Positions 22,374 to 24,210 of a stretch of 64,000 bases of DNA are shown here, in pieces. The stretch comes from Gemmatimonadota bacterium. Lineage in GTDB: Bacteria; Gemmatimonadota; Gemmatimonadetes; Gemmatimonadales; GWC2-71-9. The notes below the pieces were generated by a model. That model was not told the DNA's origin and did no database searches. It worked only from the letters and a program-made list of their open reading frames with translations. The position numbers and the translations under genes are program-made. The stretch's first letter is position 1. Every line of letters starts with the position of its first letter. Location: NCBI GenBank assembly GCA_003222195.1, contig QHVB01000025.1, forward strand, positions 248,001 through 312,000, read 5' to 3'.

Positions 22374-22389
22374 CGTGGCCCAGTAAAAT

Positions 22390-22486
22390 GCCCCAGGCAC
22401 CCCGCAACGAATCCCGACATCGCTTAGCGCTGCTCCCTGCGGGGGCCTGACGCGGTTCACGAGCGGAAAGCCTGCGGACCTGGGGC
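22390..22486 (-). ncRNA. ffs: Bacterial small signal recognition particle RNA (4.5S)
   Basis: On the minus strand this 97-base segment folds end to end: GCCCCAGG at the 5' end pairs with CCTGGGGC at the 3' end, then CCGCA pairs with TGCGG. It carries the Ffh-binding signature GTCAGG, a short C/G stem and GGGAGCAGC, followed by GCTAAGCGATG and TTCGTTGCGG, as in other bacterial 4.5S RNAs. The RNA scaffolds Ffh and FtsY for membrane-protein targeting. The usual GGAA tetraloop is replaced by CCGCA. It lies next to dnaX, as in many bacteria, but points the other way. A well-spaced promoter ends 6 bases before the predicted 5' end. Confidence 0.85.
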
Positions 22487-22492
22487 ACACGA

Positions 22493-22521
22493 AATATCAA
22501 CTCTCAATGATCAATGTTCAA
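22493..22521 (-). promoter_or_regulatory. Promoter of the SRP RNA gene
   Basis: On the minus strand, TTGAAC (22516-22521) and GATATT (22493-22498) are spaced by 17 bases. The predicted start of the RNA at 22486 falls 7 bases past the -10 box. It lies within an AT-rich palindromic repeat. Confidence 0.65.
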
Positions 22522-22575: not shown

Positions 22576-24210
22576 ATGATCGCGCTCGCCCGCAAGTATC
22601 GTCCGAAGCAGTTCTCCGATCTCATCGCCCAGGACCACGTGGCTGCCGCGCTACGCGGCGCGGTGGCGCAAGGGCGCGTCGCCCACGGGTACCTGTTCGC
22701 CGGGCCACGCGGCGTCGGCAAGACCACGGCGGCCCGCATCCTGGCGATGGCCCTGAATTGCGAGCGCCGGAGTGGAAGCACCACCGGCGAGCCGTGCGGC
22801 GAATGCGATGCCTGCCGGCGCATCTGGACCGGCGCGGCCAACCTGGATGTCGTCGAGCTCGACGCCGCGTCCAACCGCGGCGTGGACGATGCCCGCGATC
22901 TCCGCGAGCGCGCCATGTACGCCGCCAGTACCGAATCGGGCTCAAAGGTTTACATCGTCGATGAAGCGCACATGCTCACCCGCGAGGCGTGGAACGCGCT
23001 GCTCAAGATTCTCGAGGAGCCGCCGCCCCGCGTCGTGTTCGTGTTCGCGACCACCGAGCCGCAGAAGATCGCTAATACGGCGGCACCGATTCTGTCACGA
23101 CTGCAGCGGTTCGACTTCCGCCGCATCGGCCCGCACGCCATCGTCGCCCGGCTGAAAGAGGTGGCCCGGACCGAGCAGCTGCAGGTCGACGACGACGCGC
23201 TGCATCTCATCGCTCGCAGCGCCAACGGCGGGATGCGCGACGCGCTGTCGCTGCTCGATCAAGTGCTTTCCTTCGGCGAAGGCGCGGTCACCGCGGCGCG
23301 GGTGCGCGAAGTGCTGGGACTGATTCCCGACGAGCTGTACAGCGAGATGCTGCGCGCCATCGTGGAGCGCGACTCCGGAGCCATTTTTCCTCTGGTCGAC
23401 CGGCTGCTCGAGGCCGGCGCGGACCTCGGCGAATTCGTAAACGGGGCCGCCGAGACGCTCCGCGCGCTGTTGCTGGTCGGCGTGGGTGGCCAGCCGGAAG
23501 GAATCACGGAGGGGCTGATGGCGGTCGTGCGCGAGTATGCGCCGCAGTTGCCGCCATCCGATATCGTCCGGCTGCTGACGATCCTGAGCGAGTCGGAAGA
23601 GCGGTTGAGCCGGAGCGCGAATCAGCGGCTGCTCGTGGAGGTGCTCTTGCTGCGATGGGCGATGTTGGATCGCACGGTGGAATTGTCGGAGGTGATTGAC
23701 GCATTGAAAGAGGGGAAGGGGGACGCGGGACGGGGGAAGGGTAACCCGCCCGCTAACGCTCTTGCGCCGTCGGCGCATGCAGTACCCGTCCCCCCTCCCG
23801 CTTCCCCCGTCCCCGGGATGAAGTTGGAGCCCACGCTCGAGAACGTGCGCTCGGTATGGACGCAAGTCGTGAGCGACGCCCGCGGCAAGACACCGCTGCT
23901 CGGCAGCCTGCTCGCGGAATCGGAGGTCGCCGCTGTCGAGGGCCGCGACGTCCTCCTGCGACCCGGACACGCGGTGCACGCCGAGGGACTCGAACGACAG
24001 CGCGAAACGATTGCGCAGCTGGTCGGACGCTACATCAGCGAGGCGCCGCGGATCAAAGTCGTCGAGCAGGGCGCCGGCAAGACCGCTGCGTCGCCGCCGT
24101 CACGCATGACCGCCGAGGGGGCTAGTGCGGAGCGCCTCAAGAGTCTGCGCGCAAAAGACCCCACCCTGAGCGCCGCCGTAGACGCATTAGATTTGGAGCT
24201 GCTCGAGTAG
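22576..24210 (+). CDS. dnaX: DNA polymerase III subunit gamma/tau
   Basis: The clamp-loader ATPase, 544 residues. It has Walker A GPRGVGKTT (43-51), the zinc module (C62, C74, C77, C80), Walker B with VDEAH (128-132), and LEEPPPRVVFVFATTEP with the downstream SRLQRFDF. Residues about 377-416 form a Pro/Gly/Lys linker written by a GC-rich inverted repeat, followed by a C-terminal domain. I see no A-rich slippery site like the one that makes the short gamma form in E. coli. It heads the classic dnaX-ybaB-recR order. Confidence 0.96.
   Translation: MIALARKYRPKQFSDLIAQDHVAAALRGAVAQGRVAHGYLFAGPRGVGKTTAARILAMALNCERRSGSTTGEPCGECDACRRIWTGAANLDVVELDAASNRGVDDARDLRERAMYAASTESGSKVYIVDEAHMLTREAWNALLKILEEPPPRVVFVFATTEPQKIANTAAPILSRLQRFDFRRIGPHAIVARLKEVARTEQLQVDDDALHLIARSANGGMRDALSLLDQVLSFGEGAVTAARVREVLGLIPDELYSEMLRAIVERDSGAIFPLVDRLLEAGADLGEFVNGAAETLRALLLVGVGGQPEGITEGLMAVVREYAPQLPPSDIVRLLTILSESEERLSRSANQRLLVEVLLLRWAMLDRTVELSEVIDALKEGKGDAGRGKGNPPANALAPSAHAVPVPPPASPVPGMKLEPTLENVRSVWTQVVSDARGKTPLLGSLLAESEVAAVEGRDVLLRPGHAVHAEGLERQRETIAQLVGRYISEAPRIKVVEQGAGKTAASPPSRMTAEGASAERLKSLRAKDPTLSAAVDALDLELLE

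Follow-up and report, generated by a model that had tools for sequence, protein, structure and literature searches.

A five-base apical loop in place of the GGAA tetraloop is the rule for SRP RNA in most of a Gemmatimonadota class

Introduction

Can an SRP RNA whose apical loop is not GGAA still serve as the working SRP RNA of its organism, and how might FtsY read such a tip? In E. coli, FtsY docks first on the tetraloop of the SRP RNA (PMC5454536; PMC4737761). The FtsY contacts to SRP RNA include Trp343, Ser362, Phe365, Asp366, Lys399, Val403 and Lys406 (PMC6059433), and the basic patch of E. coli FtsY is made up of K399, R402, K405 and K406 (PMC11404819). The question is raised by an ffs gene with the loop CCGCA in a Gemmatimonadota genome. 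The gene lies in a stretch of 64,000 nucleotides of contig QHVB01000025.1, which was analysed whole and is called the window here. We studied the gene, its relatives in the phylum, and the proteins Ffh and FtsY.

Results

The minus-strand segment 22486..22387 passed the gathering cut-off of the Rfam small bacterial SRP RNA model RF00169 (44.8 versus 40 bits, model positions 1-97, E-value 2e-6 in the window). The SRP RNA and its parts are as follows.

22387..22486, minus strand: ffs, small bacterial SRP RNA (4.5S-type), matching RF00169 over all 97 positions
22446..22451, minus strand: GUCAGG, 5' side of the Ffh-binding symmetric loop (from the sequence; nearly invariant in 59 relatives)
22443..22445, minus strand: CCC, 5' side of the apical closing stem (compensatory A-U/G-C/C-G changes at the outer pair)
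22438..22442, minus strand: CCGCA, apical pentaloop replacing GGAA (from the sequence; clade-wide N-Y-G-H-M loop)
22435..22437, minus strand: GGG, 3' side of the apical closing stem (compensatory changes in relatives)
22429..22434, minus strand: AGCAGC, 3' side of the Ffh-binding symmetric loop (from the sequence; nearly invariant in 59 relatives)

Minus-strand positions 22451..22429 thus read GTCAGG-CCC-CCGCA-GGG-AGCAGC. The Ffh-binding core GUCAGG/AGCAGC is present together with the symmetric and asymmetric internal loops, and the covariance search bore out the sequence-only reading of the locus as an SRP RNA gene that keeps both core motifs. The non-GNRA hairpin loop of that reading was also confirmed: the RF00169 consensus loop is GGAA, and CCGCA aligns to it only with an inserted position. 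A GNRA tetraloop is defined in sequence by four bases that start with G, have a purine in third place and end in A; CCGCA falls outside this class because it has five bases and begins with C. The GGAA/GNRA apical tetraloop, which is typical though not strictly defining of small bacterial SRP RNA, is absent. As in E. coli 4.5S RNA and RF00169, the gene encodes a single hairpin of about 100 nt with the GUCAGG/AGCAGC core and an asymmetric loop, in single copy; it differs from them in carrying five-base CCGCA where they have a GGAA/GNRA tetraloop. A search of the whole genome (3.5 Mb, 99.8% complete) with RF00169 returned this match only, leaving no better-scoring ffs elsewhere, and ffh and ftsY are both present in the genome. 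The clade covariance model R1 scored the gene at 98.7 bits, the window sequence being part of the R1 training set. Judged from its sequence, this functional-looking gene probably encodes the working SRP RNA of the organism.

We also considered whether the loop could be an assembly or sequencing error, or the gene a decayed copy with the real ffs elsewhere. An error was ruled out because the same loop recurs in many independently assembled genomes, and a decayed copy was ruled out by the single RF00169 match and the intact stem and core. No point in favour of either was found, and the chance of this explanation is negligible.

The five-base reading of the loop depends on how the closing stem is paired. 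When the window gene was folded as a single sequence, the result was only modestly better than that of shuffled sequences (z -2.0), and the stem was paired in a slipped register. In such a register, which is permitted by CCCCCGCAGGG, the three G of the stem in C-initial loops would pair one step over, leaving a four-base CGCA or CGAA loop and a 5' bulge. However, the slipped pairing is impossible for the GUGAA, GUGCA, UCGCC and UUGCC loops of relatives, and the consensus fold of 59 diverse pentaloop RNAs gave a three-pair closing stem around a five-base loop. The closing pairs showed compensating changes: the outer pair (column pair 46-56) was AU in 43, GC in 10 and CG in 6 of these RNAs and broken in none, and 17 of the 24 consensus pairs varied on both sides. 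We therefore give the slipped stem only a slim chance.

We then surveyed the apical loop in one phylum, Gemmatimonadota, with 395 genomes, and examined the tips of roughly 190 loci, taken both from named contigs and from coded genomes. An RF00169 match was found in 326 of the 395 genomes and exceeded the cut-off in 261. The strict pentaloop pattern matched 282/395 genomes; the reversed pattern matched about 40, and therefore about 10% of genomes are expected to match by chance. A tetraloop pattern was found in 69 genomes of the phylum scan. The five-base loop occurred in f1, the family of the window, and in f2, f3, f4, f5 and f7, while GGAA is the loop of three outlying families, f8, f10 and f11. 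The verified pentaloops were CCGCA, CCGAA, UCGCC, UUGCC, GUGAA, GUGCA, UCGCA, UCGAC, GCGCA, GCGAA and CCGCC, with CCGUA seen once. They fit the consensus N-Y-G-H-M, with a pyrimidine at base 2 and G at base 3 in every case. With tetraloops included, the first and last loop bases were C...A 72 times, U...C 44, G...A 42, U...A 3 and C...C once; their covariation gave independent contrasts of 3:0, too few for a test. Taken together, pentaloops predominate through most of the class, and the three outlying families retain GGAA. CCGCA is therefore not the isolated oddity that the sequence-only reading had implied.

The core itself also varied in some relatives. GUCAGG/AGCAGC is replaced by GCCAGG/AGCAAC, with both sides changed together (U.G to C.A), in L042, L029, L115, L172, L186 and others; on the DnaX tree this double change arose separately about three times. 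Other departures were GUGAGG in L162 and L163 and GUCAGA in L188, L189 and L140, in full-length genes scoring above 90 bits with the clade model.

A different form of the element was found in family f6, whose genomes had no above-threshold RF00169 match among the matches listed. The pattern GUCAGG-NCC-CCGCA-GGN-AGCAGC was present in 14 of 15 f6 genomes.

L436-L449, for example L440:1478-1566: f6 SRP-like hairpin with the pentaloop CCGCA (core pattern match)

At the four loci checked, this hairpin lies in an 80-90-nt gap between the tRNA-Glu(CTC) and tRNA-Val(CAC) genes. Its fold is a hairpin of about 48 nt whose basal stem shows compensated changes and whose asymmetric loop is 5:1-2; a second hairpin comes after it. 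The clade model recovered the core alone at 25-30 bits. The f6 element looks like a reduced SRP RNA located in a tRNA cluster, and the pentaloop recurs inside this SRP-like hairpin. With 261 of 395 genomes above the cut-off and f6 without a listed match, some SRP RNAs of the phylum are overlooked or given too low a score by the RF00169 model.

To follow loop length through the phylum, we used a DnaX tree with 135 pentaloop and 27 tetraloop rows (162 in all). At least 10 changes of loop length are needed on this tree. Tetraloop lineages with GAAA, GAGA, GGAA, GGCA and UAAC/UAGC were nested among pentaloops, and these are mostly GNRA loops or known GNRA mimics. Most simply, the loop went from four to five bases once, early on, and several lineages later returned to a tetraloop: to GAAA in at least three lineages, to GAGA in two, and to GGAA/GGCA, GGCA and UAAC/UAGC. 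We infer the direction of change by taking the GGAA families as outgroup of an unrooted tree. A single inserted pyrimidine separates GGAA from GUGAA and GCGAA, and GGCA from GUGCA, which suggests that the extra base entered behind loop base 1 and that G3 of the pentaloop would be the old second G of GGAA.

The divergent arrangement with dnaX noted in the sequence-only reading was correct, with ffs on the minus strand and dnaX starting at 22576 on the plus strand.

22576..24210, plus strand: dnaX, divergent neighbour (open reading frame; homologues adjoin ffs in most relatives)
22493..22498, minus strand: GATATT, probable -10 element of ffs (upstream regions of 138 loci aligned)

The best relatives of this dnaX bear the name Gemmatimonadota, in agreement with the phylum of the genome. 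In most relatives ffs lies upstream of dnaX, and the two genes are co-directional in 151 of 161 tree rows (about 94%). The orientation of ffs changed at least six times on the DnaX tree, and both orientations were found within the genus of the window. The 138 aligned loci gave a clade -10 consensus of TAnnTT at -12 to -7, and in most loci listed this element is correctly placed for ffs whichever way the gene points. In most cases, therefore, the whole transcription unit, promoter included, was inverted locally. The divergence in the window is such a local reversal, in which the -10 element moved together with the gene. Within one genus, the ffs unit (22383-22500 in the window; L001, L049, L052, L057) was inverted in place several times. 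Short TGATCA-rich repeats flank the unit on both sides in several genomes and may have helped inversion. The divergence from dnaX has no visible functional meaning. Five dnaX loci of close relatives (L064, L065, L066, L075, L123) had no ffs in the stretch examined; the gene may lie elsewhere or beyond the stretch, or be missing from the contigs.

Given that the tetraloop is where FtsY first docks in E. coli, we examined the docking surface in 94 Gemmatimonadota FtsY proteins (E. coli numbering). Q339, W343, D359, K399 and V403 were invariant whatever the loop, and R346 (92/94), R402 (91/94) and K/R406 (92/94) were kept irrespective of it. K405 of the E. coli basic patch was mostly A or G under all loop types. 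The compromised docking that had been suggested from the sequence was not borne out, because the docking residues are conserved. No residue switching with loop length was found at 14 docking or neighbouring positions in the 94 genomes.

One position followed the loop type. Asp366 was present in 54 of 60 pentaloop genomes, 6 of 7 with GGAA, the single one with GGCA and all four with UARC loops, but in only 1 of 16 GAAA and 1 of 4 GAGA genomes (lost in 18 of 20). By counts the association was strong (Fisher 1.3e-11), but it came from about five loop changes with two to four independent contrasts and was not significant after allowing for ancestry. Because of these few contrasts, the loss of Asp366 with GAAA/GAGA loops is a strong lead, not proof, for possible RNA-protein co-evolution. 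The pattern would fit a role of Asp366 in reading the second G of GGAA, a base that the pentaloop would keep as G3. The four UARC genomes keep Asp366 despite A as the second loop base.

We next weighed whether the loop has lost its role, FtsY in this class no longer docking on the tip, so that the loop drifts freely and targeting relies on the Ffh core and the distal site. The loop is non-GNRA and its first and last bases vary, as free drift would allow. Yet only about a dozen of the 1024 possible pentaloops occur, G3 is invariant and base 2 is always a pyrimidine; moreover, the returns to four bases led mostly to GNRA or GNRA-mimic loops, and the FtsY docking patch is nearly invariant. A lost role is thus quite improbable.

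The Ffh RNA-binding motif is intact. An Arg directly after the Ffh GxG (GSGR) was present in all pentaloop-clade members examined, whereas T, V or Q occupies this position in the GGAA outgroups. This Arg, common to the whole pentaloop clade and missing from the outgroups, would agree with a changed docking mode, in which the pentaloop does not mimic GNRA but offers a new element for recognition, its extra base touching FtsY or Ffh itself. That the base looped out of a GNRA-like pentaloop is often in contact with a protein (PMC12550061) points the same way. However, the Arg was retained in the lineages that returned to tetraloops, and no FtsY position was seen to switch with loop length, the patch residues being unchanged. 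Because it is kept in these lineages, the Arg is at most permissive and not a loop switch, and we consider a changed docking mode unlikely. Inspection of FtsY and Ffh for compensating changes, as the sequence-only reading proposed, gave this clade-wide Arg in Ffh and, at the 14 FtsY positions, no residue that switches with loop length.

Discussion

Our preferred reading, to which we give a probability of roughly 0.65, is that the gene encodes a working SRP RNA whose pentaloop arose by insertion of a pyrimidine into GGAA and forms a GNRA-like tip that docks on FtsY with one extra base. One pyrimidine would have entered the ancestral GGAA behind its first G, giving G-Y-GAA, and drift of the first, fourth and last loop bases would then have led to C-C-G-C-A in the window. 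The pentaloop most likely folds as a GNRA-like cap with a non-Watson-Crick first-last pair (G.A, U.C or C.A), in which the invariant G3 would stand in for the second G of GGAA, with one base looped out. This cap would dock on the same FtsY patch as GGAA (W343, F365/D366, K399, R402, K/R406), where Asp366, proposed to read the second G of GGAA, would find that G again as G3; docking would speed SRP-receptor assembly. We infer a GNRA-like fold, with a U-turn, a non-Watson-Crick first-last pair and stacked 3' bases, because the loops alternate with GNRA and UNAC loops and the FtsY patch is conserved; the three-dimensional fold, the docking and the identity of the looped-out base are predictions from sequence comparison.

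In solved structures, GNRA-like pentaloops hold their extra base at any of four sites, one of them between loop bases 1 and 2 (PMC12550061), and UNAC loops mimic GNRA with a U.C pair in place of G.A (PMC5311481). We favour a GNRA-like tip since solved caps tolerate an extra base and U...C can replace G...A. CCGCA itself, without the G.A pair that defines GNRA, speaks against such a cap.

Known systems resemble the Gemmatimonadota loop in part. GNRA-like pentaloops such as phage boxB show that five bases can still adopt a GNRA shape when one of them is looped out (PMC12550061), and a G at position 3 fits several registers. However, boxB starts with G, ends with A and binds the N peptide, whereas the Gemmatimonadota loop starts with C, U or G, its putative partner is FtsY and its fold is predicted. 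UNAC/UMAC tetraloops (PMC5311481) have the U...C first-last pair also seen in the UAAC/UAGC and UYGCC loops of relatives, but the window has C...A and most Gemmatimonadota loops have five bases. Some plastid SRP RNAs, whose apical loops are enlarged, likewise depart from the tetraloop and keep the core (PMC5115805). There, however, the Physcomitrella loop is about 10 nt long and lowers cpSRP54 affinity in a system that is losing its RNA (PMC5115805), whereas the Gemmatimonadota loop is short and under constraint, and the FtsY patch is preserved.

No paper on Gemmatimonadota SRP RNA or an SRP pentaloop was found in the open-access literature. We regard the pentaloop SRP RNA as a new feature provisionally, because the main SRP RNA surveys lay outside the literature searched. 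Pattern scans of viral contigs found no genuine-looking pentaloop SRP RNA, the clear SRP-like matches having GGAA or GAAA, which is weak evidence; a distant plasmid search used the E. coli core as query and is biased to GGAA.

A broader proposition is that the class replaced GGAA by an inserted-base pentaloop that FtsY still reads, that Asp366 co-evolves with the key G, and that f6 carries a minimal hairpin in a tRNA cluster. As a whole it is tentative, with the odds somewhat against it. This class-wide natural replacement, with its repeated tetraloop returns and a receptor residue that tracks the loop, offers ready-made variants for testing how FtsY reads the RNA.
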